From a virus, in the IMG/VR virus record IMGVR_UViG_3300048837_000126, positions 1 to 43,258 of that record: 43,258 nucleotides of DNA; one strand, given 5' to 3'. The notes under the pieces are model-generated. The model was given only the letters and a program-made list of their open reading frames with translations. It was not told where the DNA came from and did not search any database. Shown one piece after another: positions 1 through 43,258 of this stretch. Numbering within the stretch: the first letter of the stretch is position 1; every line of letters begins with the position of its first letter. Both the position numbers and the translations under genes were made by a program.

Positions 1-128
1 GCTGGAGCCCGATGTCGCCGCACCAGATGGACTGCACCATGGCGCGGGCTCACGTCATGTCGCTGCTCGGTTCGCTCGACGGCGTGACCACGCTGTTGCG
101 GCTGAAGAACCGGAAGAACCCCGCCGGC
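1..128. repeat. Contig terminal redundancy (left copy)
   Basis: Counterpart of 43131-43258. The single difference (position 2) is at the third base of a Gly codon and is synonymous, which is either an end error or a minor variant in the population. Confidence 0.85.
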
Positions 129-1880
129 CGCTCGCTCATCAACTTCTTCTCCGTCCCGCGCAAGCCGCGCAAGGACGAAGACCCGAACGGCATCTACTGG
201 AACGAGCCCGAGGATCACCCGGCCCGGTTCCAGGAGTTCGGCGACTACTGCGCCGACGACGTGCTGGCCGAGATCGACGCCGACGACGCGCTCCCCCAGT
301 TGTCGGACAGCGAGCGCGACATCTATCACTTCGACCTGGTCGTGAACCTGCGCGGCTTCAGGCTGGACACCGCGACGATGCGCCGGGCCGACGCCTTCCT
401 GGAGGAGGCGAAGCGGCGGGTGGATCGCGAGATCAACAAGCTCACCGAGGGCGCGGTGCCCAAGGCGACACAGGTGCAGAAGCTGAAGGACTGGCTCAAT
501 GGGCGGGGGATCGAAGTCACCAGCATCGGCAAGGGCGAAGTCGAAGACATCCTCGCCCACGCCAGGCTATTCGACGACAGTGTTGCTGAACAAGTCGTTC
601 AGGCGCGGCGTCTCGGCGCTAAGGCTACAAGCCTTGCGAAGTATGGGTCTGGACTTAGGTGCGCCGGGTTCGATGAGCGAGCAAGGGGCTTGCTTAGTTA
701 TCACAAAGCTTCGACCGGACGGTGGGCTGGAAGTCTGTATCAACCCCACAATCTGGAGCGGATCGACCCCGACGAAGACGGCCCCCTAGTCGAACAGATG
801 CTGACGATCCTGCGGGACGCCGGCAACCCGAAGGACGCGGTGGACTGGTGCGAGCTTGTCGGCATGGTCCCCATGCGAGCCATCGGCAAGTGCACCCGCG
901 CGATGATCGTGGCGAAGGACGGCCATGAACTGATCGGCTGTGACTACAGCAACGTCGAGGGACGTGGCTCGGCTTGGCTCGGCGACGAGCGCTGGAAGAT
1001 CGAAGCCTTCAAGGAATACGACGCCGGCACCGGCCCCGATCTCTACAAGCTGGCCTACAGCAAGTCATTCGGCGAGCCAGTCGAGAGCATCGGCAAAGGA
1101 CCGAAGCGCCAGATCGGCAAGGTCCAGGAGCTATCGCTGGGCTACCAGGGGGCGGTCGGCGCGTTCATGAACATGGGCGCGAACTACGGCGTGCGGCCGG
1201 ACGACCTGCTCGCGGCCGTCAAGCCAGCGGCCACGGTCGAAGGCTGGGACGCAGCGGCGGCAAAGTACGAACGCAGCTACAAGTACGGCCTGTCGCTCGA
1301 CCAGTGGACCGCGTTTCGCTACGTCGTCGATGGCTGGCGAGGCGGCCACCCCGGCATCGTCAACGGCTGGTGGGCCTTGCAGGACGCCGTGGTCGCGGCC
1401 GTCGCCGAGCCCGGCCAGAACGTCTTCCTGTTCGGCGGCCGGGTCCGCATCTACTGCGCGCGGAACCGCAGCTTCCTCTACATCTATCTGCCCTCGGGCC
1501 GCCCGCTCTCCTACTTCCGGCCACGGATCAAGGAGACCAAGGAGGACATGGGCGACTGGGAGCGCATCCGCCGCTCTGTCATCGTCGAGGGCTGGGACAG
1601 CCGGCGCAACAAGTGGGGCGACGTGTCGCTCTACGGCGGGCTGGAGTGGGAGAACATCATCCAGGCCCTGTGCCGCGATCTCCTGGCGCACGGCATGATG
1701 GCGTGCGAGCGCGCCGGCTATCCGGTGGTGCTGCACGTCCATGACGAAGGCGTATTCGAGGTGCCCATCGGTTCCGGTGACGTGGCCGAGGTGCAGCGCC
1801 TGATGGCCATCCTGCCGCCCTGGGCGCGCGGCTTCCCCCTGACCAGCAGCGCCTGGCGTGACCCGAGGTATGTCAAATGA
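1..1880 (+). CDS. Family A DNA polymerase, C-terminal part (continues from 42857)
   Basis: This is the polymerase part of a DNA polymerase I-type replicase whose start lies at 42857; joined across the circle the protein is 717 aa. The first complete in-frame codon here is at 3. The third exonuclease motif, YCADDV, is at 247-264. Motif A (CDYSNVEGR, catalytic Asp about residue 406), motif B (RQIGKVQELSLGYQG) and motif C (HVHDEGVF, Asp about residue 673) are all intact, so the enzyme should be active in synthesis and proofreading. Its stop overlaps the next gene by ATGA. Bases about 560-760, between the exonuclease and the fingers, are visibly less GC-rich than the rest, although the reading frame is unbroken. 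Family assignment is firm; that it is the replicase is inferred from the lack of any other polymerase. Confidence 0.96.
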   Translation, partial: WSPMSPHQMDCTMARAHVMSLLGSLDGVTTLLRLKNRKNPAGRSLINFFSVPRKPRKDEDPNGIYWNEPEDHPARFQEFGDYCADDVLAEIDADDALPQLSDSERDIYHFDLVVNLRGFRLDTATMRRADAFLEEAKRRVDREINKLTEGAVPKATQVQKLKDWLNGRGIEVTSIGKGEVEDILAHARLFDDSVAEQVVQARRLGAKATSLAKYGSGLRCAGFDERARGLLSYHKASTGRWAGSLYQPHNLERIDPDEDGPLVEQMLTILRDAGNPKDAVDWCELVGMVPMRAIGKCTRAMIVAKDGHELIGCDYSNVEGRGSAWLGDERWKIEAFKEYDAGTGPDLYKLAYSKSFGEPVESIGKGPKRQIGKVQELSLGYQGAVGAFMNMGANYGVRPDDLLAAVKPAATVEGWDAAAAKYERSYKYGLSLDQWTAFRYVVDGWRGGHPGIVNGWWALQDAVVAAVAEPGQNVFLFGGRVRIYCARNRSFLYIYLPSGRPLSYFRPRIKETKEDMGDWERIRRSVIVEGWDSRRNKWGDVSLYGGLEWENIIQALCRDLLAHGMMACERAGYPVVLHVHDEGVFEVPIGSGDVAEVQRLMAILPPWARGFPLTSSAWRDPRYVK

Positions 1881-22364: not shown

Positions 22365-22371
22365 ACGAAGA

Positions 22372-31723: not shown

Positions 31724-31732
31724 GGCGTTACC

Positions 31733-31799
31733 CTACCAGGCGGGATTTGAACCCGCGTCTCCCGTTCGGTGCGCTCTACCAGACTGAGCTACCCGCGGC
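31733..31799 (-). pseudogene. tRNA-like segment B (D-arm and T-arm, shortened anticodon arm)
   Basis: On the - strand: D-arm GCTC-AGTCTGGTA-GAGC (31789-31773), then only 15 bases, then T-arm GCGGG-TTCAAAT-CCCGC (31756-31740). A normal tRNA has about 22 bases there, and the acceptor arms (CCGCGGG and CTGGTAG) do not pair. Degenerate rather than functional in translation. Confidence 0.6.
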
Positions 31800-31807
31800 C
31801 GCTGACG

Positions 31808-31870
31808 GTCACAGGGTCGGATTTGAACCGACGACCTTCACCCGATGCGCAAATGGCCATGGGCGCTCGG
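31808..31870 (-). pseudogene. tRNA-like segment A (3' half of a tRNA)
   Basis: On the - strand a perfect T-arm GTCGG-TTCAAAT-CCGAC (31832-31816) preceded by GGTGAAGGTC and followed by CCTGTGACC; no matching 5' acceptor or D-arm upstream. It follows the CTTGACA box at 31880. Confidence 0.55.
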
Positions 31871-31880
31871 CCTTGTCAAG
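31851..31880 (-). promoter_or_regulatory. Candidate late-unit promoter
   Basis: CTTGACA on the - strand (31880-31874) with a poor -10 (CCATTT, 31856-31851) after 17 bp. The -35 is perfect, the -10 is weak, so a phage activator or an extended context may be needed. It would start the late transcript within tRNA-like segment A. Confidence 0.4.
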
Positions 31881-31938
31881 AGGCAGGCGTCGCGACGTAT
31901 CACCGGCCGGGCTGGACACTGGATCACCGACGCACGCT

Positions 31939-32297
31939 GAACAGAAGTTTACAGGTTGCGGCAGTATCGCCGGAACAAAAGTTCGCTGTACCGTGCTGGA
32001 ACAGAAGTTTGCTGGTTCGCCGGTTAAAGGGGTCGATCTCTGAAAGCGTATGTTCGCTAGGTCGGCAGTCCGACCGAATAGCTGAAAACAAAAGTTAGCA
32101 GGGTCAGATGTCCCGGAAAATTGCGTGTGTCGCCCCGCGCCGCGCGATGCAAACGAGTTGGGGGCTCCCCCGGCCTCGAAGTTGGCAGGCTGCAAACTTC
32201 AGTTTTCGCATCAAATCGGCAATGCGCGCGGTTCGGCCAAGCCGCTAAGTCATTGATATGGTTAGGCAATTGCCTGCTAACAATAGTTCGCTAGGTC
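31939..32297 (+). repeat. Iteron/operator array, six copies of GAACARAAGTT-type repeat
   Basis: Direct repeats of about 20 bp at 31939, 31973, 31999, 32044, 32086 and 32278. Cores: GAACAGAAGTTT, GAACAAAAGTTC, GAACAGAAGTTT, AAGCGTATGTTC, AAACAAAAGTTA, TAACAATAGTTC, most followed by GCTGGTTC-, GCTAGGTC- or GCAGGGTC-like sequence. The core is a dyad GAAC-N4-GTTC, perfect in the second copy. Spacing is 34, 26, 45, 42 and 192 bp. An inverted copy occurs at 33199-33209. Confidence 0.65.
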
Positions 32298-32320
32298 GCG
32301 GTTAGGTGGCTCGCTGAAGT

Positions 32321-32345
32321 GCTGACTTAGGCCCGGCAAGTCAGC
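32321..32345. repeat. Perfect 8-bp inverted repeat
   Basis: GCTGACTT (32321-32328) and AAGTCAGC (32338-32345) separated by nine bases. No T-run on either side, so a binding site or structured origin element is more likely than a terminator. Confidence 0.55.
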
Positions 32346-32537
32346 AACTCGACCGCTGCGCTTGTGCACGTCACAACGACCCTGCCTTAACCTAAGACTA
32401 GGCGCTTCAGCGCTCCAGCCTAAGCAGCGAACCGCCAACGGATCGGCTGTAACACTCGACCCACAGCGACACCGTAGCGCAAGGCGAGCGCTGGCAACGC
32501 CTAGCGCTTATCCCTAGACGCTAGGATGTCGCATAAC

Positions 32538-32561
32538 CCGGCAAATAGCCGGATTTGCCGG
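32538..32561. repeat. Perfect 9-bp inverted repeat near the early promoter
   Basis: CCGGCAAAT (32538-32546) and ATTTGCCGG (32553-32561) with a 6-base loop AGCCGG, ending one base before the candidate -35 box at 32563. Suited to be an operator. Confidence 0.55.
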
Positions 32562-32562
32562 C

Positions 32563-32591
32563 TTGCCTTATACGGGAATTGGATGCTAAAC
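32563..32591 (+). promoter_or_regulatory. Candidate promoter of the early unit
   Basis: TTGCCT (32563-32568), 17-bp spacer, CTAAAC (32586-32591), 55 bases before the first early gene. Match to consensus is moderate only. Confidence 0.4.
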
Positions 32592-32625
32592 CGACCTACC
32601 ATAACGGCTACGTCTAATACCTAGG

Positions 32626-32637
32626 GAAACAGGAGTT
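32626..32637 (+). promoter_or_regulatory. Leader box with ribosome site, copy 1
   Basis: GAAACAGGAGTT, followed by AGCAGCAC and the ATG at 32646. The AGGAG is the Shine-Dalgarno. The same box precedes the genes at 33282 and 33661, and it resembles the iteron core with continuing GTTAGCAG. Confidence 0.6.
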
Positions 32638-32645
32638 AGCAGCAC

Positions 32646-33197
32646 ATGCCCGCATTCAAGCCCGCTCATGAGTTAGCAGACATCCCCGCTCGCGTGCTCG
32701 ACCTATTCACAGTCGAGAATGGCGAATTGCATTGGTCTCCGGTTTGTCCCGCGTCATGGCGCGGCATGGTGCGTGCGCCATGGGGCTCGCGAGCCGGCGG
32801 CAAGCCAGTGTATGGGCGCGGCCGTCTTATCAACGCCAAGCGGATGAACCTGCTAACTGTCGATGTCGCCTACGCGCTGGAGCACGGTGGCGAATGGCCA
32901 TGGCAAATCAACGCCGGGCTTATCCCCGCCGATGCGCGCGACCTGGACAACGCGAACCACTGGCGCGACCTGATCCGCGCGCGGTTCGCTTTGGACGGCG
33001 AAGCGCTGACCTGGCGCGTTGATCGCGGGTTCAATGCCGATAGGACCGTGCGCTATCCGGCCGGCTCGCGCGTCGGCGGCTTGGCCATGTCAGGCTTTCG
33101 CGAGCCAATCGTCGCGACTGGCGGCATGACGTTTCTCGCATCGGACGTGCGCGCCGTGCTGCAAACCGGCTGCTTCCCGTGGAATGAGTGGAATTGA
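32646..33197 (+). CDS. HNH-related DNA-binding protein with duplicated domain, probably non-catalytic
   Basis: A 183-aa protein. Residues about 15-80 (LDLFTVENGELHWSP up to ALEHGGEWPW) look like the DNA-recognition segment that precedes HNH motifs in phage endonucleases, which has L-x-Y-x-x-x-x-G-x-L-x-W and ends in G-x-W-P. DARDLDNANHWRDL (about 96-109) resembles the D-x-x-x-D-N-R-x-x-N-L part of an HNH but the leading D-H is missing. Residues 110-180 repeat the first pattern (FALDGEALTWRVDRG up to TGCFPW). So it is a duplication with the nuclease lost. First gene of the early unit; it could bind DNA as a regulator. Family assignment is by eye. Confidence 0.6.
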   Translation: MPAFKPAHELADIPARVLDLFTVENGELHWSPVCPASWRGMVRAPWGSRAGGKPVYGRGRLINAKRMNLLTVDVAYALEHGGEWPWQINAGLIPADARDLDNANHWRDLIRARFALDGEALTWRVDRGFNADRTVRYPAGSRVGGLAMSGFREPIVATGGMTFLASDVRAVLQTGCFPWNEWN

Positions 33198-33198
33198 A

Positions 33199-33209
33199 AA
33201 CTTTTGTTC
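33199..33209 (-). repeat. Inverted copy of the GAACAAAAGTT box
   Basis: The + strand reads AACTTTTGTTC, the exact reverse complement of the core at 31973. It lies ten bases before the TTGACA promoter of the next gene. Confidence 0.6.
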
Positions 33210-33218
33210 GCAACCCGC

Positions 33219-33247
33219 TTGACACGCGGTTCGCCTAGGCTTAGGTA
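33219..33247 (+). promoter_or_regulatory. Early promoter before the 102-aa gene
   Basis: TTGACA (33219-33224; CTTGACA), 17-bp spacer, TAGGTA (33242-33247), 35 bases before the ATG at 33282. Confidence 0.6.
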
Positions 33248-33263
33248 TAGGACATCAACCACG

Positions 33264-33275
33264 CAAACAGGAGTT
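33264..33275 (+). promoter_or_regulatory. Leader box with ribosome site, copy 2
   Basis: CAAACAGGAGTT before the ATG at 33282; see the copies at 32626 and 33643. Confidence 0.55.
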
Positions 33276-33281
33276 CACGAC

Positions 33282-33590
33282 ATGCCCGGCCACAGCTACC
33301 ACGTCGAATGGACTGACACTTTCGCGGGCGAAGCCAACTATTCATGGGTTCGCCGCGCTGACATCACCGTGCCTGAGCTTGTGCATTACGGTTACACGGG
33401 CTCGACCGATGGCTCTTATCGCGCCGCGTGCAAGCGGCAACAGCGCGAGATCATGCGCAAAGCCAAGGCGGCCATTGGCATCACGGGCCTTCGCGGCGTC
33501 ACTGAAGACACGGGCGAAGGCTTCACGTTCCGGCCGTATCGCATGTGCTGCATTCTGTTTGTCACATGGCAGGATCAGCCGGAAGCCTGA
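33282..33590 (+). CDS. Small early protein, 102 aa, conserved type
   Basis: Begins with YHVEWTDTFAGEANYSWVRR, a sequence type I recall from small proteins on alphaproteobacterial plasmids and phages, followed by a basic helix (RAACKRQQREIMRKAKAAIG) and a beta end (GFTFRPYRMCCILFVTW). Function unknown. It has its own TTGACA promoter and the leader box CAAACAGGAGTT. The ATG at 33282 is downstream of the promoter, so in-frame codons further upstream are excluded. The stop is followed by a trailer shared with two other early genes. Confidence 0.7.
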   Translation: MPGHSYHVEWTDTFAGEANYSWVRRADITVPELVHYGYTGSTDGSYRAACKRQQREIMRKAKAAIGITGLRGVTEDTGEGFTFRPYRMCCILFVTWQDQPEA

Positions 33591-33640
33591 CGTTTCGACC
33601 TTGCCGCCCTTTGGGGCGGTAATCCGAAGCGCCACGCTTC
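33588..33640 (+). repeat. Shared intergenic trailer, copy 1
   Basis: TGACGTTTCGACCTTGCCG, hairpin CCGCCC/GGGCGG (33604-33619), then AGCGCCACGCTTCAGC. Homologous modules lie at about 34108-34170 and 34648-34692. Confidence 0.55.
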
Positions 33641-33642
33641 AG

Positions 33643-33654
33643 CAAACAGGAGTT
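33643..33654 (+). promoter_or_regulatory. Leader box with ribosome site, copy 3
   Basis: CAAACAGGAGTT, then GGCACC and the ATG at 33661. Confidence 0.55.
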
Positions 33655-33660
33655 GGCACC

Positions 33661-34104
33661 ATGTCGAAAACCTTTGACGCGCACCTAGCCGCCATCCGGT
33701 CAGGCGAGATCACGAAAACAAATGTTATCGGGCTGCGGAAGGCCCTGACCGCGCTGAACAAGCGCGAAGCGGGCTGGAGTGTCAGCCGCACGCAAGTCAA
33801 GGTCACGGCGCGCGATCTCGACACCGCATGCGATGAACTCGACCGGGTCAAGCCGCGCGTGGTCGGCGAGCTTCACGACACAGGGCTAGCGCAGCTTCAG
33901 GCGAAGCGCTACCGCCGGCAGCTTGCGAGCGTTGCCGAGATCGTCGCGGGCATCGCATCATTCCACCTTGTCGGCTTTGAGCTAGTCGGAAGCCGGCAGC
34001 TATACGCCACGCCGCTTTACGAGGCCCGCGACGCGGAAGGCCGCGCGTTCCGGTTCATCAACATCCCGTGGCAGAACGGCGGCAACGGCCCTGAGATCGT
34101 CTAG
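33661..34104 (+). CDS. Hypothetical early protein, 147 aa
   Basis: No family recognised. N-terminal helical part (LAAIRSGEITKTNVIGLRKAL) and a central SRTQVKVTARDLDTACDELD, C-terminal YATPLYEARDAEGRAF then RFINIPWQNGG. The ATG at 33661 has AGGAG at 33648-33652 in the shared leader box; the frame is open further upstream but that part would overlap the previous gene. Soluble, slightly basic. The short repeated-helix N-terminus may bind nucleic acid; no direct support. Confidence 0.65.
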   Translation: MSKTFDAHLAAIRSGEITKTNVIGLRKALTALNKREAGWSVSRTQVKVTARDLDTACDELDRVKPRVVGELHDTGLAQLQAKRYRRQLASVAEIVAGIASFHLVGFELVGSRQLYATPLYEARDAEGRAFRFINIPWQNGGNGPEIV

Positions 34105-34107
34105 GCG

Positions 34108-34170
34108 TGACGTTCCCGCCTTGCCGGTCCAGATCGGGCCGGCAATGGGGAGCGCCTTGCTCCAGCACAT
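34108..34170 (+). repeat. Shared intergenic trailer, copy 2
   Basis: TGACGTTCCCGCC, then a 7-bp perfect stem TTGCCGG (34121-34127) with CCGGCAA (34139-34145), then GGGGAGCGCCTTGCTCCAGC. Aligns with the modules at 33588 and 34648. Confidence 0.55.
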
Positions 34171-34194
34171 CAACCGGAAAAGGGAAAGCGGCTC

Positions 34195-34356
34195 ATGTTG
34201 ATCGGACCCGCCAGATTTATCGAATGCGTCATCCTCGCGGCGCTCGTGGCTTGCATCACGCTTGTCGCGGCGCGGATCGACATGCGCGACCAGGCCATGA
34301 CGACCTGCCTGGAGCGCCACAGCTTCGACACCTGCCATTCTGCACTCAACCGTTAA
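34195..34356 (+). CDS. Small membrane protein with Cys-containing tail, 53 aa
   Basis: One N-terminal hydrophobic helix (ECVILAALVACITLVAA) followed by a polar tail with TCLERHSFDTCHSALNR. The pattern C-x-x-x-x-S-x-D-T-C-x-x-x-L-N-R is one I recall from short proteins of plasmids and phages in alphaproteobacteria. AGGGAAAG lies ahead of the ATG. Probably an inner-membrane peptide with the paired Cys in the periplasm; role unknown. Confidence 0.6.
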   Translation: MLIGPARFIECVILAALVACITLVAARIDMRDQAMTTCLERHSFDTCHSALNR

Positions 34357-34366
34357 GGAGCCCGAC

Positions 34367-34648
34367 ATGGACTTTCGCACTCACACCGGCGAGATTGTAA
34401 CGGGAGATCGGCTGCAAGCCGCGCTGTCAAAAGTCGCTGACGACTGGCGTAACTTGGCTCGCGCGATCCGCAAAGAGGACCGTTACGCTCCGCACGTTAC
34501 GGACGCCACAAAAGAGCAGGCGATGCTGGACATGCTCTCCCGCGCTGACGAAATCGAAGCCGGTGATGTCCGCAGTTTAACCATATGGCAGCGCGTCGAC
34601 ACGGAGCTAACCGGCGAGTGCGTAGCCTTGCTACCTGCACGACGCTGA
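34367..34648 (+). CDS. Hypothetical early protein, 93 aa
   Basis: A soluble helical protein (RLQAALSKVADDWRNLARAI, then TKEQAMLDMLSRADEIEAGD). AAGGAG precedes the ATG ten bases after the previous stop. No recognisable motif. It is the last gene of the small-cassette block before operator-promoter copy 3, and is followed by a third copy of the trailer. Confidence 0.6.
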   Translation: MDFRTHTGEIVTGDRLQAALSKVADDWRNLARAIRKEDRYAPHVTDATKEQAMLDMLSRADEIEAGDVRSLTIWQRVDTELTGECVALLPARR

Positions 34649-34688
34649 CACCCTGCCGCTCTCGGGCGGCAGTAGTGAGCGCCAGTGC
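34648..34688 (+). repeat. Shared intergenic trailer, copy 3
   Basis: TGACACCCTGCCGC with a 7-bp perfect stem CTGCCGC (34653-34659)/GCGGCAG (34666-34672), then TAGTGAGCGCCAGTGCTT, which runs into the CTTGACC of the next promoter. Confidence 0.5.
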
Positions 34689-34724
34689 TTGACCCGGCCC
34701 GATAAAACGCATAACAATCTATGC
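34689..34724 (+). promoter_or_regulatory. Early promoter with palindromic operator, copy 3
   Basis: TTGACC (34689-34694), 17-bp spacer, TAACAA (34712-34717); palindrome GCATA-ACAATC-TATGC at 34709-34724. Drives the 360-aa HTH protein and probably the RusA-helicase block. Confidence 0.7.
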
Positions 34725-34745
34725 GAGATCAACCGGAGACAATCC

Positions 34746-35828
34746 ATGTTCAGCTTCAAGGAAACCGCCGAGAAGGCCGCAGCCGAGTTCGGGCTGTCGA
34801 TGAAGGACGACCCGACCTTGTGGCCCGAGGGCTCGACCCCGACGCTCGCGGTCGTGACGAAGGCGTGCAACGACACCGCCATCGAATGCGCCCGGTCGGC
34901 CATGTCGCGCGGGCTCGGCAAGATCGCCGAGACGGTCGCGACCGAGTTCGATGTCGCAATCGCCGAGGACGGCCCGCTGGCCGACTTGGAGACCGTCCTG
35001 AACGAGCACCTATACGACGGGCCGGACATCGACCTGTCGGCCGTCCTGGCGGCTCCTGACTGGCAGGCCCGCGTCGAGGCGACCCGTGAAGCCTTCGGCG
35101 TCGCGGTCCAGAGCTACGACGTGCCGGCGCGCTCGGCCGAGGAAGTGGCCCTCTATGTCGAACTCGACCCGCGCCTGTCGAAGCTCGGGATCGTGTCCGG
35201 CAGCAAGCCCGACGTGCCGCAGTCGCTGCTCGTGAACCAGGGCGGCGACGAATGGGACGAGCCGGACGCCGAGGTGAAAGACGAGCCCGACGCGGTCGAT
35301 CCGTGGGCCGACGAACAGGCTGACAAACTGGACCGCATCGTCAACCCCGGCGGTGTCCTGCCCCCGGCTCGCGAGCGCGGCAAGCCGTCGCCGGGCAAGG
35401 CCCGCCGGACCAAGGCCGAGATCGCCGAGGACGAGGCGGCTGACCGCGCTGACCAGGCTGCGGCGTTCAAGGACGCCGTCGAAGGTCCGGCCGAGGCCGA
35501 GACTACCGCCTGGGATGACGAGCCCGCCAGCGAGGCCCCTGCGCCTGCCCTGGACGCCGGCTGGGATGATGCCGAGCCGGCCGCGACCGCTGCAAACCTG
35601 CCGGGGCTCGCGAGCGCGGCCGGGATCGCTGATGGCGAGATGGCGGCCCTGCTCGGCATGTCCAAGGGCTACTACTCGCAGGTCCGCAACGGCAAGCGCC
35701 CGTGGCCCGGCCTGAAGCCCGATCAGGTGCAGCGCCTGCGTGCTGAACTCGCGGGCCGCCGGGAAGCCATCGACGCCGTCGAGGCCGCCCTGTCCACCGC
35801 CGATGTCCTGAAGCCCGAAGGCGCGTAA
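34746..35828 (+). CDS. Acidic protein with C-terminal helix-turn-helix, 360 aa
   Basis: N-terminal 150 residues are helical and acidic with no known domain (FKETAEKAAAEFGLSMKDDP). Residues 170-290 are a low-complexity acidic/Ala linker with repeated W-D-D-E patches. The C-terminal 70 residues carry an XRE-like HTH: GEMAALLGMSKGYYSQVRNG, then KRPWPGLKPDQVQRL. It can therefore be a DNA-binding regulator or a replication-related organiser. It is the first gene under operator-promoter copy 3, hence a candidate autoregulator of the GCATA-N6-TATGC sites. ATG 34746 follows CGGAG; the earlier in-frame codons overlap the promoter. Its stop overlaps the RusA start (TAATG). Confidence 0.7.
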   Translation: MFSFKETAEKAAAEFGLSMKDDPTLWPEGSTPTLAVVTKACNDTAIECARSAMSRGLGKIAETVATEFDVAIAEDGPLADLETVLNEHLYDGPDIDLSAVLAAPDWQARVEATREAFGVAVQSYDVPARSAEEVALYVELDPRLSKLGIVSGSKPDVPQSLLVNQGGDEWDEPDAEVKDEPDAVDPWADEQADKLDRIVNPGGVLPPARERGKPSPGKARRTKAEIAEDEAADRADQAAAFKDAVEGPAEAETTAWDDEPASEAPAPALDAGWDDAEPAATAANLPGLASAAGIADGEMAALLGMSKGYYSQVRNGKRPWPGLKPDQVQRLRAELAGRREAIDAVEAALSTADVLKPEGA

Positions 35829-36259
35829 TGCGTGAGCGGGCGAGCCTCGTCTCGGTGAACCTGCCTCTCCCGCCGTCCGTGAACGATGCGTTCGCGGCTC
35901 GGCGGGGGAGCCACCTGACCATGAAGACAGCGAAGTACCGCTTTTGGGAGCGGGAAGTGCTGGAGGAACACGGATACGGCCAATACCTGCCGGTGCTCGA
36001 AGCCGGTAGCTATGGGCTGTGGCTCGACCTGAACCCCAAGATGCGCGGCGACATCGACAATCGGATCAAGCTCGTCTCTGACGTGCTGAAGGGTCCGACC
36101 AAGACGAGCCCCAACGCGCTCGGGATCGTGGTCGATGATGGGCACATGAAGGGGCTCCACGTCGAGTTTCTACCGGGCCTCGCGGAACAGAGGTGCAGTG
36201 TCACCGTCGTGAGTCTGGCGATCTGGCCGAGCTACGTTTGCATGAGGATGGAACCGTGA
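35828..36259 (+). CDS. rusA: RusA-type Holliday junction resolvase
   Basis: A 143-aa protein matching the RusA family: N-terminal VNLPLPPSVNDAF, then the catalytic acidic cluster RGDIDNRIKLVSDVLKG and a second pair GIVVDDGHMKGLHVEF. RusA cuts four-way junctions symmetrically as a dimer; it would resolve intermediates of phage recombination or branched replication before packaging. The C-terminus is slightly extended (SLAIWPSYVCMRMEP). ATG overlaps the preceding TAA. Part of the recombination set with DUF2800 nuclease and SNF2 helicase. Confidence 0.9.
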   Translation: MRERASLVSVNLPLPPSVNDAFAARRGSHLTMKTAKYRFWEREVLEEHGYGQYLPVLEAGSYGLWLDLNPKMRGDIDNRIKLVSDVLKGPTKTSPNALGIVVDDGHMKGLHVEFLPGLAEQRCSVTVVSLAIWPSYVCMRMEP

Positions 36260-36477
36260 TTACGAAGCAGGAAATCAAGAACCTGCTGGGGCGCGTGCAG
36301 ACCATGGCGCAGCGCCGGGGCTTGACCAGCGTGCACGCCTACCGCACCTGCACACGACACCTGGAGACGGCCCTGTGGTGCAGGCAGGAAGCCCGGCTGG
36401 CCGGTGTCCGGCACGCCCACACTCACTTCCAGTTCCTGAAGGCGGCTGCGGCCGAGAAAGCTGCCCGTCGTGGTTAA
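36256..36477 (+). CDS. Small basic helical protein, 73 aa
   Basis: Starts at GTG 36256 (GTGA overlap with RusA stop; GAGGATGGA upstream). Sequence MITKQEIKNLLGRVQTMAQR followed by a basic helical stretch (RTCTRHLETALWCRQEARLAG). No family recognised; charge and size suggest a nucleic-acid-binding accessory protein, or a regulator of the following helicase or resolvase. Longer starts overlap RusA heavily. Confidence 0.6.
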   Translation: MITKQEIKNLLGRVQTMAQRRGLTSVHAYRTCTRHLETALWCRQEARLAGVRHAHTHFQFLKAAAAEKAARRG

Positions 36478-36976
36478 GGTCAGGCGGATCAGGATCGAAG
36501 GCGACACGGCCTTCGTGCCTCTGACAATGGGCAAAGAAGCGGTAATAGACGCCGCTGATGTGCCTCTTGTGGCGGGGCGAAACTGGTGTGCCGAGAAGGC
36601 TACGGACACGTTTTACGCAGTTAGGACACAGAAGGTCGGCGGCAAAGACCGACACTTCAGGCTGCACCGCGTCCTAACGGGCGCTACGGGCAGAGATCAC
36701 GTTGACCACATCGATGGAGACGGCCTGAATTGCCGAAGGTCCAACATGCGCCTGGCTACGCACACCGAGAACATGCGGAACTCTCGACGCCGCAGAGATA
36801 ACTCCAGCGGCGTAAAGGGCGTTACCTTCGACAAGTGGACCGGCCGCTGGCAGGCCAAGATAAGCGTAGACGGCCGGACTGTTCATCTCGGGCGGTTTAG
36901 TAGCATCGAAGCCGCCGCAGAGGCGTATCGCAAAGGCTCAGAAAAGTACCATGGCGAATTTGGACGGTTCGGCTGA
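36470..36976 (+). CDS. HNH homing endonuclease with AP2 domain
   Basis: A 168-aa protein. HNH core: HRVLTGATGRDHVDHIDGDG (D-H about residues 79-80) followed by NCRRSNMRLATHTENMRNS, and C-terminal AP2-type DNA-binding domain SSGVKGVTFDKWTGRWQAKI, then GRTVHLGRFSSIEAAAEAYR. It starts with GTG inside the end of the previous gene. The base composition is visibly lower in GC than the neighbours, as expected for a mobile insertion. It probably spreads as a freestanding homing gene between RusA block and helicase. No intron is visible. Confidence 0.9.
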   Translation: MVKVRRIRIEGDTAFVPLTMGKEAVIDAADVPLVAGRNWCAEKATDTFYAVRTQKVGGKDRHFRLHRVLTGATGRDHVDHIDGDGLNCRRSNMRLATHTENMRNSRRRRDNSSGVKGVTFDKWTGRWQAKISVDGRTVHLGRFSSIEAAAEAYRKGSEKYHGEFGRFG

Positions 36977-36977
36977 C

Positions 36978-38348
36978 ATGCAACTTGAACAGTACCAACT
37001 AGAGGGAGCGGCTTTCCTGGCTGCCAGCTACAGGGCGTCTATTTTTGACGAGCCGGGTCTCGGAAAAACGGGACAAGCTATCCGCGCATGCGAACTGGTC
37101 AACGCCGAGCGCACCATCGTCATCTGTCCGGCCGGCGTCCGACAGGTCTGGCCCTACCAGTTCAAGCTGTGGGGCCGCAAGAACCCGCGCGTCGTGAAGG
37201 CCGACAGCATCTTCGATCTCGTGGCCTGGCAAAAGGGCCGGGTTGATGTCCTGGTGATGAGCTTCGAGCAGGCGACCCAGTGGTGGCGCGACATCGCGAG
37301 CGACTTCTTCGACTGCCTCATCATCGACGAGAGCCACTATCTGAAGAACCCCGACGCCAAGCGGACCAAGGCCATCGTCGGGGATCGCGGCGACGGGATC
37401 GGGGCCATCGCTGGCATGGCGAGCTATGTCTGGTGCCTGACCGGGACGCCGATCAAGAACGACCCCGCTGACCTGTGGGTTCCGCTCCGTCTCGCGGGTC
37501 AGACCAAGCTCGACTTCACCGCGTTCCAGAAGCGGTTCTTCAAGCAGCGCATCGGCACCTTCTCCGTGGCCAATTCCGTGCGCAAGGAAGCCCTGCCCGA
37601 GCTACAGGCCATGCTCCGCGACATGTCGCTGATGCGGACCTTCGCCGACGTTGGCAGCACGCTCCCGCCAATCCGACTAGACGTACTTCCGGTCGAGGGC
37701 GACAGCCGCGAGGTGGTCGAGTACCTGAAACAGTACCCCGGCCTGTCCGACCGCATTCTCCAGAGCATCGAAGCGGGAGGTGGCGCGCTGTCCTTCGACG
37801 ACAGCACGCACATCGCCACGCTGCGGGCTATGATCGCCGAGGCCAAGGCCCCCGGCTACGCCAGGCTCATCACCGAGGAATTGAAGTCGGGCACCATCGA
37901 CAAGCTCGTGGTCATGGGCCACCACCGCCGGGGCTTGCAGATCGTCACCGAGCACCTGAACAGCCACGGCATCCGCGCCGAGATGATCGTCGGCGGGACA
38001 TCCGAGCGCCAGCGCGAGGACACCGTGCGATCGTTCCAGGACGATCCGAAAGGCGTCCGCGTGATCTGCGGCAACATCACCGCCGCCGGCACGGGTCTCA
38101 CCATGACGGCCGCCTGCCGGCTCGACATGCTGGAGAGTTCGTGGACCCCGGCCGACAACGTCCAGGCCGTGCGCCGCATCCGCCGTAAGGGTCAGAACCG
38201 GCCGACCTTCGCCCGCTTCGTGATGCTGTCGAACAGCTTCGACGACGCGGTGGCGAACATCGTGACCCGCAAGGCCAACACCATCGTCTCGATCACCGAC
38301 AAGGACAACCTGCAAGAGGCCATGGCCCGAAAGGAGAACCACGCATGA
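36978..38348 (+). CDS. SNF2/DEAD-type helicase (annealing helicase-like)
   Basis: A 456-aa superfamily 2 ATPase. Walker A DEPGLGKT (about 24-31), Walker B DESH (117-120), GTPIKN (motif III), AAGTGLTMT (motif V) and RRIRRKGQ (motif VI) are present. The N-terminus QYQLEGAAFLAASYRASIFD is typical of small phage SNF2 proteins related to SMARCAL1-type annealing helicases; it would remodel forks or recombination intermediates. The ATG at 36978 lies one base after the HNH stop and is preferred to an ATG at 36951 inside it, because the HNH gene was probably inserted next to an existing start. The stop overlaps the next gene (ATGA). Confidence 0.9.
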   Translation: MQLEQYQLEGAAFLAASYRASIFDEPGLGKTGQAIRACELVNAERTIVICPAGVRQVWPYQFKLWGRKNPRVVKADSIFDLVAWQKGRVDVLVMSFEQATQWWRDIASDFFDCLIIDESHYLKNPDAKRTKAIVGDRGDGIGAIAGMASYVWCLTGTPIKNDPADLWVPLRLAGQTKLDFTAFQKRFFKQRIGTFSVANSVRKEALPELQAMLRDMSLMRTFADVGSTLPPIRLDVLPVEGDSREVVEYLKQYPGLSDRILQSIEAGGGALSFDDSTHIATLRAMIAEAKAPGYARLITEELKSGTIDKLVVMGHHRRGLQIVTEHLNSHGIRAEMIVGGTSERQREDTVRSFQDDPKGVRVICGNITAAGTGLTMTAACRLDMLESSWTPADNVQAVRRIRRKGQNRPTFARFVMLSNSFDDAVANIVTRKANTIVSITDKDNLQEAMARKENHA

Positions 38349-38806
38349 CCCCGATCCAGCCGTTCAACACTGCGCAGCTAGTGCTGCGGTACCGCATCGT
38401 GCCCAAGTTCCTGCCCCCGATAACGCAGGCGCTGCCGCCGACGACCTGGCTCCAGCGCCTCCTCTGGCGTCTCGCCGACCGGGCCGGGCTCCTGGTCCAC
38501 AACTACGTCCCGAAGACCGAGGTGGTTCAGACCAAGACCGTCGTGCTCGAAGGCACGGCGCAGGCGATTATCGCGAACGCAATCGTCGCCTTCATGAACG
38601 ACGACCAGCGGCTGAACCCACAGCGCGATCTCATCATCCTTTGGGGCGAGGAGAGCTTCGCGAATTTCGCCCGCGACGCCGTCGATCTGAAGTCCGACCT
38701 GGTCTTCGCCCGTGGCGGCGACGGCCACCGCGAGTATCGCGGGATCGTGGTGCGCGTCGTGAGCTACATCAACGGCCCCCTGGTCATCCGCCGTCGGGAT
38801 TTGTGA
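38345..38806 (+). CDS. Hypothetical early protein, 153 aa
   Basis: No family identified. N-terminal region is Pro-rich (VPKFLPPITQALPPTTW), the central TKTVVLEGTAQAIIANAIVA and the C-terminal EYRGIVVRVVSYINGPLVI look like an alpha/beta fold. It overlaps the helicase stop. It has no membrane segment. Co-expression with the helicase suggests a partner role in replication or recombination. Confidence 0.6.
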   Translation: MTPIQPFNTAQLVLRYRIVPKFLPPITQALPPTTWLQRLLWRLADRAGLLVHNYVPKTEVVQTKTVVLEGTAQAIIANAIVAFMNDDQRLNPQRDLIILWGEESFANFARDAVDLKSDLVFARGGDGHREYRGIVVRVVSYINGPLVIRRRDL

Positions 38807-38807
38807 C

Positions 38808-39077
38808 ATGCAGAAGGTCCAGAACTCGAAGCTGAAGGTCGAGCGCGACGAGGCCAAGCACGCTACCGTTCTGACCATCACGCTCGACGACCGCGATCTA
38901 AGCCGGCATCACCTGGTGCCGCCCGACACGGCCGCTCCCGTTGACGCGCTGGCGCAGTATGCGCTGCACTGCCTGCACGTCATGCACAGCCAGACCGTCG
39001 AGGAGAAGTACCGGCTCCTGCTGGCGGATCGGAACAACGGCTACCCCGAGGACTACAAGCCGGGGCGTTGGGGCTGA
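38808..39077 (+). CDS. Hypothetical early protein, 89 aa
   Basis: Starts one base after the preceding stop. Basic N-terminus (QKVQNSKLKVERDEAKHATV), a central YALHCLHVMHSQTVEEKYRL helix and a short Tyr/Pro-rich tail. No motif recognised. The last gene before operator-promoter copy 4. Confidence 0.6.
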   Translation: MQKVQNSKLKVERDEAKHATVLTITLDDRDLSRHHLVPPDTAAPVDALAQYALHCLHVMHSQTVEEKYRLLLADRNNGYPEDYKPGRWG

Positions 39078-39091
39078 TCGAACATTCCGGC

Positions 39092-39127
39092 TTGACGCGC
39101 CACGCCGGATTGCATAACTTCCTATGC
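39092..39127 (+). promoter_or_regulatory. Early promoter with palindromic operator, copy 4
   Basis: TTGACG (39092-39097), 17-bp spacer, TAACTT (39115-39120); palindrome GCATA-ACTTCC-TATGC at 39112-39127. Leads into the nuclease/SSB/polymerase block. Confidence 0.7.
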
Positions 39128-39162
39128 GCGAACAAACCTAGCTCGCAACCCAAGAGGACGAC

Positions 39163-39606
39163 ATGAAGATCACGCTGAACATTGAGACGAACGACCCGGC
39201 CGACCTGGAGCGCATCGCCGCTGCACTCGCGGGCAAGGAAGTCGCTGTCACCACGGGAAAGCCGGCGGCGACGACCACGAAGAAGACCGAGACTGCCCCT
39301 TCGGGGGGCGCTGCTCAGGCGAGCCAGTCTGCCCAGGCCGGCTCGGGCCAGGGCGCTTCGACTGCGGCGTCCGGTTCTGACGCGGGCGGCGCGGCCGTGC
39401 CGAGCGATGCCGATCTGATTGCCGCCGCGAACACCGCGACCGGCAAGGTCGGCAACGGCGGGCCGGACAAGGTCAAGACCTACATCGCCAACAACTTCAA
39501 GAAGGCCGATGGCTCGCCCGGCACGCTGAAGACGACGGCCGAGGGCGACCGCGCTCGCCTGCTTTCCGATCTCCAGAAGATCGGCCGTGGCGAAATCACG
39601 CTCTGA
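39163..39606 (+). CDS. Low-complexity protein with conserved C-terminal domain, 147 aa
   Basis: N-terminal 25 residues form a short alpha/beta start (KITLNIETNDPADLERIAAA). Residues 30-85 are Thr/Ala/Ser/Gly low complexity. The C-terminal 60 residues (SDADLIAAANTATGKVGNGG, then VKTYIANNFKKADGSPG) look folded and helical. I recall similar C-termini in phage early proteins near DUF2800 nucleases, with no known function. First gene under operator-promoter copy 4; GAGGACGAC precedes the ATG. Confidence 0.65.
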   Translation: MKITLNIETNDPADLERIAAALAGKEVAVTTGKPAATTTKKTETAPSGGAAQASQSAQAGSGQGASTAASGSDAGGAAVPSDADLIAAANTATGKVGNGGPDKVKTYIANNFKKADGSPGTLKTTAEGDRARLLSDLQKIGRGEITL

Positions 39607-39619
39607 TGCGTTAAGCTAG

Positions 39620-39645
39620 GCACGGGGGCGCTCCTGCCCCTGTGC
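39620..39645 (+). promoter_or_regulatory. Intergenic hairpin
   Basis: GCACGGGGGC (39620-39629) pairs with GCCCCTGTGC (39636-39645) with one G-T pair, six-base loop. There is no T-run, so an mRNA stabilising or attenuating structure is likelier than a terminator. Confidence 0.45.
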
Positions 39646-39660
39646 AACTGGAGTGATCCG

Positions 39661-40152
39661 ATGACCAAGCAGAGCAACAAGGGCGCGCCCGCCGCGTCCA
39701 AGGAAGCGGCCGAGAACTGGGACGACGCCCCGGCTCCCGGCTCGCAGAACCCCGAGCCCAAGCAGGAGCCCGGCCCGAAGCCGGACCCCGCGCCGGCCGA
39801 ACCGACCGACAAGGTCAGCCAAGACGCCGCTGCCTCGACGCTGAAAGACGCGGCTGCGAACCTGCCGGCCGACCCCAAGTCGGACGAGGTGGCGCAGCGC
39901 CTGCGCGACATCGCCGAGAAGCTTCCGAAGCGCCCGCGGCCGGCGGGAGCTACGGATGTCACGACGATCCGTGAACTGAAGCAGCTTCTCGCCGGCTTGC
40001 CCGACGACACGAAGCTATACCTCGCTGACGCGGACACCGATTGGCGGGTCCGCTGGCTCGGGGCCACCCTGCAAGACGGCAAGCTGCTTCTCTCCACGGG
40101 CTATTCGTGGATCGACGGAGACTGCCACGACGAGTTCAAGGCGGGCACATGA
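39661..40152 (+). CDS. Hypothetical protein with disordered N-terminus, 163 aa
   Basis: Residues 1-60 are Pro/Glu/Ala-rich and disordered (GSQNPEPKQEPGPKPDPAPA). The C-terminal 65 residues (TTIRELKQLLAGLPDDTKLYLADADTDWR, shown in part as LKQLLAGLPDDTKLYLAD) resemble a short domain common in phage and bacterial early proteins. No catalytic motif. Its stop overlaps the DUF2800 nuclease start (ATGA), so it is likely part of the same functional set. Confidence 0.65.
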   Translation: MTKQSNKGAPAASKEAAENWDDAPAPGSQNPEPKQEPGPKPDPAPAEPTDKVSQDAAASTLKDAAANLPADPKSDEVAQRLRDIAEKLPKRPRPAGATDVTTIRELKQLLAGLPDDTKLYLADADTDWRVRWLGATLQDGKLLLSTGYSWIDGDCHDEFKAGT

Positions 40153-41432
40153 CCGAGAAACAGCACCTCACCTTCGGCGGCTCCAGTGCTCACCGCTGGC
40201 TCGCCTGCCCCGGCAGCGCCAAGCTGTGCGCCACCCTGCCCCCGCAGGTCGAGAACGAGCACATGGCCGCCGGGACGCGGGCTCACGCCCTCTTGGAACT
40301 GGCCGTTCGTGAGCGCCGCGAGAGCGTGCTGGAGTTCGACGGCGTCTCGCTGCAAGCGGGCTGGCCCGAGTTCGAACTGGACGATGTCGAGGCCGTGCAG
40401 AAGGCGGTCGATCACATCAACGAAATTCTGGAGCGCTACCCCGACGCGATCATGTGGGTCGAGCGGCAGTTCACCCTGCCCATGCCGACCCCCACGCCGG
40501 TCTACGACGAGGACGGACTGATCGTCGGCTACGCCCCTACCGAGATCGGCGGCACGGCCGACGTGGTGATCTACATCCCGTCGCTGAAGCTCCTGATTGT
40601 GATCGACTACAAGCATGGGCGCGGCAAGTACGTCCCCGAGACCACGCCGCAGATGAAGCTCTATGCGTCCTGCGTCCTGTTTGGCCTGCCGGACTTGCCT
40701 GTCGAGCGGGTCGATGCGACGATCATCCAGCCACGCTGCCAGGTCGGCACGCCGATCCGCACCGCCATCTACAGCCCCGGCGATCTGATCGCCTTCAGCG
40801 ACGACGTGGACGCGGCTGTGGCCCTGGCCCGCAGCGAGGAGCCGCCCTTCGTTCCCGGCGGCGAGCAGTGCCACTGGTGCCCCGCAGCCGAGGCTGGAGC
40901 CTGCGCCGCCCTGTTCAATGGAGCCGTTGCCGTGCCGAACCAAGTCACCGAGTGGATGGACCAGCGCGATCTCGACCCGGTGTTCGTCACACTCCCCTCG
41001 GCCGAGGCGATGCGCAGCAACCCGGCCAAGCTGTTCGACACGCTGAAGGTGCTGCCGATCCTGCAAGCCTGGATCGACGGCGTCGAGCGCGCGGCCGAGG
41101 CGCACGCCGCCGGCACCGGCTACTCGCCGGGCTTCAAGTTCGTCGATAAGCAGGCGCGCCGGAAGTGGCTGGACGAGGAGGCCGTGCGCCGCTGGTTCGC
41201 CGAGAACACGATGCTCGACGAGGACGAGTACGCCCCGCGCAAGACGCTCTCGGTCGCGCAGGCCGAGAAGCTGGTGAAGCTCAACGCGGGCAAGGATGGC
41301 GTAAAGGCGATGGCCGAGCACGTCATCAAGCAGAGTTCGGGCCTGAAGCTTGTGCCCGAAGACGCGAAGGGGGACGCGGTCAATCCCCTTGCCGTAGACG
41401 AGGCCGGCTTTGCCTCGGCAGTGACGATCTGA
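40149..41432 (+). CDS. DUF2800 PD-(D/E)XK nuclease
   Basis: A 427-aa protein of the DUF2800 family. The start GGSSAHRWLACPGSAKLC is diagnostic. The nuclease core has GTADVVI (Asp138) and IVIDYKHG (Asp153, Lys155) then QMKLYA, as in RecB-type nucleases. Cys20, Cys241, Cys244 and Cys252 (CHWC-x7-C) have the spacing of an iron-sulphur cluster in Cas4/AddB-type nucleases. It probably resects DNA ends for single-strand annealing recombination together with the DUF2815 protein just downstream. The ATG overlaps the preceding stop; a longer upstream frame is a shadow. Confidence 0.88.
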   Translation: MTEKQHLTFGGSSAHRWLACPGSAKLCATLPPQVENEHMAAGTRAHALLELAVRERRESVLEFDGVSLQAGWPEFELDDVEAVQKAVDHINEILERYPDAIMWVERQFTLPMPTPTPVYDEDGLIVGYAPTEIGGTADVVIYIPSLKLLIVIDYKHGRGKYVPETTPQMKLYASCVLFGLPDLPVERVDATIIQPRCQVGTPIRTAIYSPGDLIAFSDDVDAAVALARSEEPPFVPGGEQCHWCPAAEAGACAALFNGAVAVPNQVTEWMDQRDLDPVFVTLPSAEAMRSNPAKLFDTLKVLPILQAWIDGVERAAEAHAAGTGYSPGFKFVDKQARRKWLDEEAVRRWFAENTMLDEDEYAPRKTLSVAQAEKLVKLNAGKDGVKAMAEHVIKQSSGLKLVPEDAKGDAVNPLAVDEAGFASAVTI

Positions 41433-41450
41433 TCCTAACGGAGAGACCTG

Positions 41451-42239
41451 ATGACGACCATTGACCAGCGGTTCCAGTCGAACCTTGCCCCCGATCTCCT
41501 GACGCGCTTGCTTCAGGGGAACCAGCCCCGCATCGCCGAGGGCGGCCTGCTCTACACGGGGGCCGTGCGCCTCTCGTGGCCGAGCCTGTCGAAGCCCCAG
41601 TTGCCGAAGACCAGCAAGCCCGGCGACAAGCCGAAGTACCAGGCTTCCGGCATCTTCGTGCACAAGAACATCGGCGTCATCATGGAGGCGCTGAAGGCGG
41701 CCGTGCGCCGCGACTACCCGAACGTCACCGACCCGATGGTGCTGCTCGATCCGAAGAACAAGAACTCGGCGGTCAAGGACCAGGCGCTGAAGGTGTCCGT
41801 CAATGACGGGGGGCTCGACCCGATCAACGCCACGACCGCCGGCTATGTGCCGAGCTTCCCGTTCGTCTCGGGCAAGTCCGAGAAGGCGGTGCCTTGCTTC
41901 CACAGGAAGGACGGCCGTGTCGTCGCGCTCCTGCCCGAGGAGATCGAAAAGCTCCTCTACGCTGGCGCGTGGGTGGACATCAAATACAAGATCATCAAGT
42001 CCACCTCGACCGGCAACCCCGGCGAGTTCTTCGGCCTCCAGTCCGTCATGAAGCTCGGGGACGACACCTCGTTCGGCAGCGGCGGGGGCGGTGGCGGCTC
42101 GCCCGAGGACTGGGGCGACAGCGTCGCCATCGAAGACCCGAACGCGAACCAGATCATGCAGAACTCGGGCGTCGCGCAGAACGACTGGGACAGCCCGTCG
42201 TCCACGACCACCGCCTCGGCGACGAGCGAGTGGGAGTGA
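41451..42239 (+). CDS. DUF2815 single-stranded DNA-binding protein
   Basis: A 262-aa protein of the DUF2815 family, the SSB-like partner that accompanies DUF2800 nucleases. The N-terminal 200 residues (YTGAVRLSWPSLSKPQLPKT, then FVHKNIGVIMEALKAAVRRDY) carry the OB-type core, followed by a Gly linker (SGGGGGGSPEDWG) and an acidic C-terminal tail ending SATSEWE, the typical arrangement for binding ssDNA and recruiting replication partners. It would coat ssDNA during replication and strand annealing. A terminator follows at once. Confidence 0.88.
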   Translation: MTTIDQRFQSNLAPDLLTRLLQGNQPRIAEGGLLYTGAVRLSWPSLSKPQLPKTSKPGDKPKYQASGIFVHKNIGVIMEALKAAVRRDYPNVTDPMVLLDPKNKNSAVKDQALKVSVNDGGLDPINATTAGYVPSFPFVSGKSEKAVPCFHRKDGRVVALLPEEIEKLLYAGAWVDIKYKIIKSTSTGNPGEFFGLQSVMKLGDDTSFGSGGGGGGSPEDWGDSVAIEDPNANQIMQNSGVAQNDWDSPSSTTTASATSEWE

Positions 42240-42247
42240 TCCACCCT

Positions 42248-42272
42248 GCCGGGGCTTCGGCCCCGGCTCTTT
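42248..42272 (+). terminator. Rho-independent terminator after the SSB gene
   Basis: GCCGGGGC (42248-42255), TTCG loop, GCCCCGGC (42260-42267) and TCTTT. Eight-bp GC stem. No new promoter is obvious before the next gene, so it probably lowers rather than stops transcription of the polymerase genes. Confidence 0.68.
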
Positions 42273-42301
42273 CCTGAAGCAGCGAGACAGAGGAGCGCGC
42301 G

Positions 42302-42598
42302 ATGAAACACGCCCGCAAGGACTACAACGAGATCACCACGAACGGCCGCACCCGCAAAATCCCGAAAGACGAGCCGGTGTTCCTGCTTCGCGCGCAGGAC
42401 GCGGTGGCCGCCAACACCGTCCGCTTTTGGGCGGCTGCTGCCGCGACCGCTGGCGCTGCGCCTGACATCGTCGAGGCGGCCCGCAAGCATGCCGACCTGA
42501 TGGAGGCATGGCCGACGAAGAAGATACCGGACATGCCCGAGGGCGCGGCCGAGGAAGCCGAGACCGACACCCACGACGGCAAAGGTCCGGTGGCCTGA
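42302..42598 (+). CDS. Conserved phage protein near DNA polymerase, 98 aa
   Basis: The start KHARKDYNEITTNGRTRKIP followed by DEPVFLLRAQDAVAANTVRF is a pattern I associate with short conserved proteins in tailed phage replication regions; the function is unknown. The tail is acidic. It lies between the SSB terminator and the Acb2-like gene, in a small group with the polymerase. ATG follows GAGGAGCGCG. Confidence 0.7.
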   Translation: MKHARKDYNEITTNGRTRKIPKDEPVFLLRAQDAVAANTVRFWAAAAATAGAAPDIVEAARKHADLMEAWPTKKIPDMPEGAAEEAETDTHDGKGPVA

Positions 42599-42626
42599 CC
42601 GCCCCAGCAACAGGAGACCGACTGAC

Positions 42627-42857
42627 ATGACGAATAAAGGCTTGCCCGTCGCGGGCTATCGCGACCAGAGCAACGACGCGGTAGCGCTCGTGAACGGCAA
42701 CAAGATTATCGAGGAGCAGGCGCTGCGCATCCTCGACGACTTGGCGGCTCGTGACGATGTTGATAAGCGCTGGCTCGCCATCGGCCGCACTGCAATCGAG
42801 CAGGGGTTCATGGCGGTCAACCGCTCGATCTTCAAGCCCGAGCGCGTGAAGCTCTGA
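42627..42857 (+). CDS. acb2: Acb2/Tad1-family cyclic-nucleotide sponge (anti-CBASS)
   Basis: A 76-aa protein with the hallmarks of the Acb2 family: VAGYRDQSNDAVALVN near the N-terminus, a helical middle, and the C-terminal signature DKRWLAIGRTAIEQGFMAV (residues about 47-65). Tyr11 and Lys26 fall at the positions that I recall as ligand contacts in Acb2 of Pseudomonas phage PaMx33. Proteins of this family form hexamers that bind cyclic di- and trinucleotides and so block CBASS, and some related ones block Thoeris. CAACAGGAG precedes the ATG; its stop overlaps the polymerase start (TGATG). Family membership is by sequence recognition; binding is inferred. Confidence 0.82.
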   Translation: MTNKGLPVAGYRDQSNDAVALVNGNKIIEEQALRILDDLAARDDVDKRWLAIGRTAIEQGFMAVNRSIFKPERVKL

Positions 42858-43258
42858 TGCCTAAGCTCCATTTGGATTTTGAAACGCGGTCGGCCGTCAA
42901 CCTGAAGACCTGCGGGGCCATGCGATACGCCATGGACCCGACGACAGCGGTGTTGTGGGCCTGCTGGTGCATCGAAGACGAGTGGGGCGGAGGCACCGTG
43001 AAGCGCTGGCGACGGGGCGACCCGCCGCCGCGCGAACTGATCGACGCGATTGCCTCGGGTATGACCGTCGTGGCCCACAACGCGATGTTCGAACTCGCCA
43101 TCTGGCACTTCGTGTGCGCCGCCCGCATGGGGTGGAGCCCGATGTCGCCGCACCAGATGGACTGCACCATGGCGCGGGCTCACGTCATGTCGCTGCTCGG
43201 TTCGCTCGACGGCGTGACCACGCTGTTGCGGCTGAAGAACCGGAAGAACCCCGCCGGC
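42857..43258 (+). CDS. Family A DNA polymerase, N-terminal part (continues at 1)
   Basis: The start of the polymerase whose remainder is at 1-1880. It encodes the 3'-5' exonuclease domain: Exo I is LDFETRS (Asp and Glu about residues 6-8) and Exo II is AHNAMFELAIW, in which the usual Asp is a Glu, as in several phage polymerases with this domain. The ATG overlaps the acb2 stop (TGATG). Codons from 43133 to the end are duplicated at 3-128 by the contig overlap. Confidence 0.95.
   Translation, partial: MPKLHLDFETRSAVNLKTCGAMRYAMDPTTAVLWACWCIEDEWGGGTVKRWRRGDPPPRELIDAIASGMTVVAHNAMFELAIWHFVCAARMGWSPMSPHQMDCTMARAHVMSLLGSLDGVTTLLRLKNRKNPAG
43131..43258. repeat. Contig terminal redundancy (right copy)
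   Basis: Identical to 1-128 except at the second base (G here, C at position 2). It lies inside the polymerase gene and keeps the frame, so it is an assembly overlap of a circular or circularly permuted genome rather than a biological direct repeat. Confidence 0.85.

Follow-up and report, generated by a model that had tools for sequence, protein, structure and literature searches.

A compact Acb2-type protein gene in the variable interval from SSB to DNA polymerase in a T7-like podovirus

Published work on the phage proteins Acb2 and Vs.4 (including PMC12043709 and PMC10097602) has shown that their hexamers hold three cyclic dinucleotides, and that Acb2 also holds cyclic trinucleotides. According to the same body of work, this sequestration starves effectors such as CapV and NucC. 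In phage T4 Vs.4, cGAMP is stacked between Y8 and F82, and is contacted by Y8, H11, K23 and R79; the authors who showed that Vs.4 is a cGAMP sponge drew its homologues from PHROG 717 (PMC10097602). Tad1 has an N-terminal beta sheet ahead of the hairpin (PMC12043709). Published work also indicates that a sponge becomes a liability in hosts that carry Panoptes.

Here we analysed a 43,258-base stretch of viral DNA (hereafter, the window) that contains a short gene, acb2, upstream of the DNA polymerase gene. The features of this region are given below; L041, L042, L043, L045 and L049 are contigs of sister phages.

41451..42239, + strand: gene for a ssDNA-binding protein (SSB), Enc34 / Gp2.5-like (PF10991, 1.2e-7; phrog_112, 2.1e-13)
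42248..42267, + strand: terminator-like GC hairpin with a TTCG loop, just 3' of the SSB gene; also in L042
42302..42598, + strand: upstream gene for a 98-aa protein (orf42302), without a family match; in L041 and L042, missing at this place in L043, L045 and L049
42599..42856, + strand: cassette-like stretch of 258 nt from the orf42302 stop to the polymerase ATG; 3 nt at this place in L041 and L042 (empty-site alignment, gene order)
42612..42617, + strand: Shine-Dalgarno-like AGGAGA, read from the sequence, about 10 nt 5' of the acb2 ATG and within the inserted stretch
42627..42857, + strand: acb2-like gene, 76 aa, ATG to TGA (matches to PF24729, phrog_717 and, by profile, PDB Acb2 and Vs.4)
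42857..43258, + strand: DNA polymerase, N-terminal part (PHROG 17)
12..1880, + strand: DNA polymerase, remainder; 717 aa once joined over the terminal repeat

Family and fold of the 76-aa protein

Translation of 42627-42857 (+) yielded the 76-aa product of the original prediction, including Y11, K26 and the C-terminal DKRWLAIGRTAIEQGFM. The prediction that this product is of the Acb2 type held up in the profile search: the protein matched the whole of PF24729 (Acb2_Tad1_hairpin; profile positions 1-58 of 58) at E 2.2e-16 and 60.2 bits, where the cut-off is 27 bits. It also matched PHROG 717 (4.5e-13). When solved structures were searched with the single sequence, Acb2 p26 (8h2j) was the sole match (1.3e-6). 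A profile of 33 relatives recovered p26 at 2.2e-14 and T4 Vs.4 (7uq2) at 9.8e-8, and nothing else among the solved structures scored below 0.3. PADLOC and NCBIfam contained no model that matched the 76-aa protein.

Comparison with p26 of Pseudomonas phage PaP2 (8h2j, 8h2x) revealed the same hairpin domain, beginning with GYRD...K and ending with RWLAIGxTxI...M...R...P, and the residues Y11 and K26 at identical numbers. In contrast, p26 is 93 aa long, its hairpin has ~19 extra residues in the segment from K26 to the RW motif, and it has an alanine at the position of F69. The T4 protein Vs.4 likewise belongs to PHROG 717, and its Y8, K23, R79 and F82 correspond to Y11, K26, R66 and F69; however, Vs.4 is 88 aa long, has H11 in place of Q14, and lacks the RW motif. 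The hairpin of the 76-aa protein is thus 19 residues shorter than that of p26 and 16 shorter than that of Vs.4. Comparably short forms occur in jumbo phages GAP32 and Munch and in Aeromonas phage MQM1. Short hairpins together with an LPVxGY motif are also found in RcapMu44, RcWaterboi 42, Polewnik and RHph_X2_26, which are 57–65% identical to the 76-aa protein, whereas these alphaproteobacterial-phage proteins lie in other contexts (e.g., a Mu-like head operon) and are annotated as hypothetical, and some relatives carry extensions.

The AlphaFold2 model (25 sequences) was a helical hairpin with helices at residues 16–40 and 47–68 and a mean pLDDT of 86. This single chain has the fold of the Acb2 protomer, in which a short N-terminal part precedes two long antiparallel helices. 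All of the best nine Foldseek matches were Acb2 or Vs.4 chains (probability 0.94–1.00), with E values (0.015–0.27) that were weak, as is to be expected of so small a hairpin. At the level of the monomer, the model and the Foldseek matches agreed with the original prediction of an Acb2-type protein. The VIA-align Z was 7.5 for both Vs.4 and Acb2, versus 6.9 for CsoR and 5.3 for Rop; because the CsoR value is so close, the fold by itself is not decisive, and it is the sequence that decides. Tad1 has the C-terminal helical hairpin in common with this protein, according to the Pfam family definition, but we rejected membership in Tad1: the N-terminal antiparallel beta sheet is missing from the model, and the ~15 residues ahead of helix 1 leave no room for one. 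That is, because the sheet is absent, the protein is Acb2-type rather than Tad1. We concluded that the 76-aa protein belongs to the Acb2 family, and that it is an ordinary further member, in compact form, of an already known counter-defence family.

Ligand-contact residues and proposed function

In the profile alignment, residues Y8/H11/K23/R79/F82 of Vs.4 corresponded to Y11/Q14/K26/R66/F69 of the 76-aa protein. Four of these cGAMP-contact residues were therefore kept (Y11, K26, R66, F69), and H11 was replaced by Q14 both here and in nearly all of the short clade. Tyr 11 and Lys 26, which the original prediction had singled out, proved to be the pocket positions that align with Vs.4 Y8 and K23. 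Among 87 distinct short relatives, K26, M62, A63, N65, R66 and P71 were invariant; F69 was present in 86/87, and Y11 and Q14 were each present in 85/86. The wider set, to which p26, Vs.4, and the jumbo-phage and Aeromonas-phage copies were added, had invariant G10, Y11, N23, K26, M62, R66 and P71. Residue R48 of the 76-aa protein was near-invariant; R67 of p26 presumably has a role in binding cyclic trinucleotides. The Vs.4 hexamer-interface residues L29, A66, A73 and A77 aligned with A32, G53, G60 and V64, which are small but not identical. Pairwise estimates for acb2 against 14 relatives (66–75% DNA identity) gave dN of 0.20–0.30 and dS of 0.7–1.6. Changes were thus mostly synonymous (dN < dS), indicating that acb2 is a maintained coding gene under purifying selection.

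By analogy with the characterized members of the family, the protein very probably acts as a compact Acb2-type sponge. Its helical hairpins would assemble as a hexamer, and 3',3'-cGAMP and related dinucleotides would be held between two protomers via Y11, K26, R66 and F69. Cyclic trinucleotides might occupy another site of the Acb2-type hexamer. With the signal sequestered, CBASS or other cyclic-nucleotide effectors of the host would stay off while the phage replicates.

SMODS nucleotidyltransferases, a CBASS enzyme family, were present in 1/7 alphaproteobacterial genomes that carry a relative (Rhodobacter capsulatus SP108, with two enzymes), which points weakly to CBASS as the target. The small number of carriers with a SMODS enzyme could also be read in favor of a sponge for some other signal, mainly that of Thoeris, type III CRISPR or another nucleotide, instead of CBASS dinucleotides. 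Such a shift in ligand would be brought about by the hairpin, which is 16–19 residues shorter; moreover, the hairpin domain is common to Tad1, as its Pfam name states, and ligand range varies among published Acb2 homologues (PMC12043709). We consider this improbable, given that Y11, K26, R66 and F69, which would contact the dinucleotide, hardly vary within the short clade and that the N-terminal sheet of Tad1 is lacking. A sponge that acts on CBASS or other cyclic-nucleotide signalling remains our favored interpretation.

The variable region from SSB to polymerase

The first 128 bases of the window are the same as its last 128, with one mismatch, and this 128-bp terminal repeat implies that the polymerase gene spans the record ends. 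A leftward block at ~7.8–31.5 kb contains the genes for terminase, head-tail adaptor, major head protein, tubular tail, internal virion proteins and tail fibre. The rightward block comprises SNF2-like helicase, exonuclease, SSB, the 98-aa gene, acb2, polymerase and primase/helicase. The features of a T7-like podovirus were found (phrog_332, phrog_394, phrog_376, phrog_342, phrog_418 and the terminase phrog_2), and the PHROG matches to head-tail adaptor, tubular tail, internal virion proteins and terminase agree with the earlier assignment to the podoviruses. A DNA-level search of window positions 1-25000 and 30000-43258 against public phages gave no match, leaving no named phage as a close relative.

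Three other features of the window deserve mention. An HNH_3 and AP2-domain gene that is homing-endonuclease-like (36470-36976, +) lies directly before the SNF2-like helicase gene. A tandem tRNA-like stretch (31697-31836, −) contains one Rfam tRNA match of 33.5 bits, with a short anticodon arm, that ARAGORN did not call; two sub-threshold matches to YrlA (bacterial Y RNA-like) overlap it. The motif RAACTTYTGTTY occurs in eight copies with at most one mismatch, versus 0.2 expected, at 31939-32205 and also at 33198, 33265 and 22424. Most copies fall in the non-coding DNA that separates the two gene blocks, and they are possible operator or origin repeats.

The acb2 stop and the polymerase ATG (42857) are joined as TGATG and have one base in common. 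The reported overlap of acb2 with the polymerase start is thus real, but it amounts to a single base and not to a long overlap. Through this joint, translation of the downstream gene would be coupled to that of acb2. That acb2 is made early and together with the replisome, as originally proposed, is conjectural: because the hairpin at 42248-42267 follows the SSB gene, transcription may be lower for acb2 and polymerase than for SSB, judging from the sequence. A promoter scan found 1 site versus 1.2 expected.

We collected 10 sister contigs via their polymerases (68–89% identity). The closest of these, L041 and L042, have polymerases 88–89% identical to that of the window and the gene order SSB, 98-aa gene, polymerase, with the last two genes 3 nt apart. 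In L043, L045 and L049 the polymerase gene directly follows SSB, and in L046 and L050 a longer gap separates the two, without a match to acb2 or to the 98-aa gene. The PF24729 family was detected in 0/10 sister records when searched anywhere in each, some of the records being fragments; the same search was positive in 8/8 carriers. These differing gaps, and the sisters that lack acb2, indicate that the slot is variable and that acb2 is cargo. We concluded that acb2 is an accessory cassette occupying the variable interval from SSB to polymerase. It does adjoin the polymerase gene, as first described, but this characterization is better than that of a gene hidden among polymerase genes. On the same grounds, and because just 1/114 loci with a relative (L142) adjoins a related polymerase, we discarded the possibility of acb2 being a fixed companion of the polymerase.

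Locus L142 bears on the history of the slot. It is divergent, with a polymerase 38–45% identical and an Enc34-type SSB upstream, and has acb2 in the same slot with a 20-nt overlap with the polymerase start. This arrangement would be consistent with acb2 being ancestral in the phage lineage and lost by the sisters, with no recent cassette gain, and an AU test did not reject the window and L142 copies as one clade (p 0.169). However, the two copies were joined in 0% of 200 bootstrap trees, the window copy grouped (92/75) with copies of other contigs, and all ten sisters lack the gene. An ancestral acb2 therefore seems the less likely history, though a credible one, and we prefer a recent gain of acb2 in the lineage of the window. 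As speculation, the liability of a sponge in Panoptes hosts fits acb2 coming and going among sister phages.

Relatives, host and significance

Relatives of acb2 were found in 37 public phage records, chiefly from phages of Rhizobium, Rhodobacter, Brevundimonas and Caulobacter and from enterobacterial jumbo phages, and at least 244 IMG/VR loci encode one. Those named host genomes that were found to carry a relative are all Alphaproteobacteria. Several relatives had unusual arrangements. Five loci (L039, L025, L026, L028, L029) have the Acb2 hairpin as the C-terminal part of longer ORFs (~170–190 aa), whose N-terminal part ends in a motif like YADGxxSxSPxxAFxEGY. In one virus record (G031, 49977 bases; L117), PF24729 matched twice, at 63.1 and 33.4 bits. 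In Aeromonas phage MQM1 (L063:2394-3225), a weak PolyA_pol-like nucleotidyltransferase gene comes immediately before the Acb2-like gene, and an intron-split DNA polymerase lies nearby. The gene beside the RHph_X2_26 copy (L038:5435-5974) is annotated as TIR-domain, a label that was not upheld: Pfam assigned the gene to DUF1937/DUF4406.

At 22357-22430 (−), in the interval that separates the major head protein gene from a scaffold-like gene, the window has an Rfam match to RF00519 (mmgR/suhB sRNA) of 44.5 bits (cut-off 41), with one RAACTTYTGTTY copy at its 5' end; the match in sister phages reached up to 59.9 bits. The mmgR/suhB sRNA is a small RNA of alphaproteobacteria, and a phage-borne match is thus a hint at the host. 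Together with the Rhodobacter, Brevundimonas, Caulobacter and Rhizobium phages among the relatives, it makes the alphaproteobacterial host that had been proposed likely.

The neighbours of the relatives differ: Mu-like phages have capsid genes there, Brevundimonas phages have helicase genes, and elsewhere the genes are uncharacterised. One could imagine that the hairpin was recruited to replication or virion assembly and that its position reflects such a role, since polymerase and SSB genes adjoin acb2 here, divergent L142 uses the same slot, and the relative is placed after a capsid gene in RcapMu and RcWaterboi. Yet sister phages dispense with the gene, and neighbours change between phages while ligand residues stay, making such recruitment highly improbable in comparison with a sponge.

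A broader proposal, which we regard as unlikely, concerns the short-hairpin clade of alphaproteobacterial phages as a whole. This clade might be a functionally distinct sponge with a ligand range unlike that of long Acb2/Vs.4, moving as a cassette among unrelated phages; here a single variable slot would have received it, possibly on more than one occasion, with the stop-start joint coupling polymerase translation.

With our analysis, a known counter-defence family gains a member from a T7-like podovirus lineage whose hosts are probably alphaproteobacterial; what the analysis adds is the comparison with empty sites and the variability of the slot. The shortest forms reveal the minimal Acb2 core that is retained. 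The phage of the window and its sisters L041 and L042 constitute a clean natural pair with and without acb2, and the gap between SSB and polymerase is a candidate place for more counter-defence genes in these phages.
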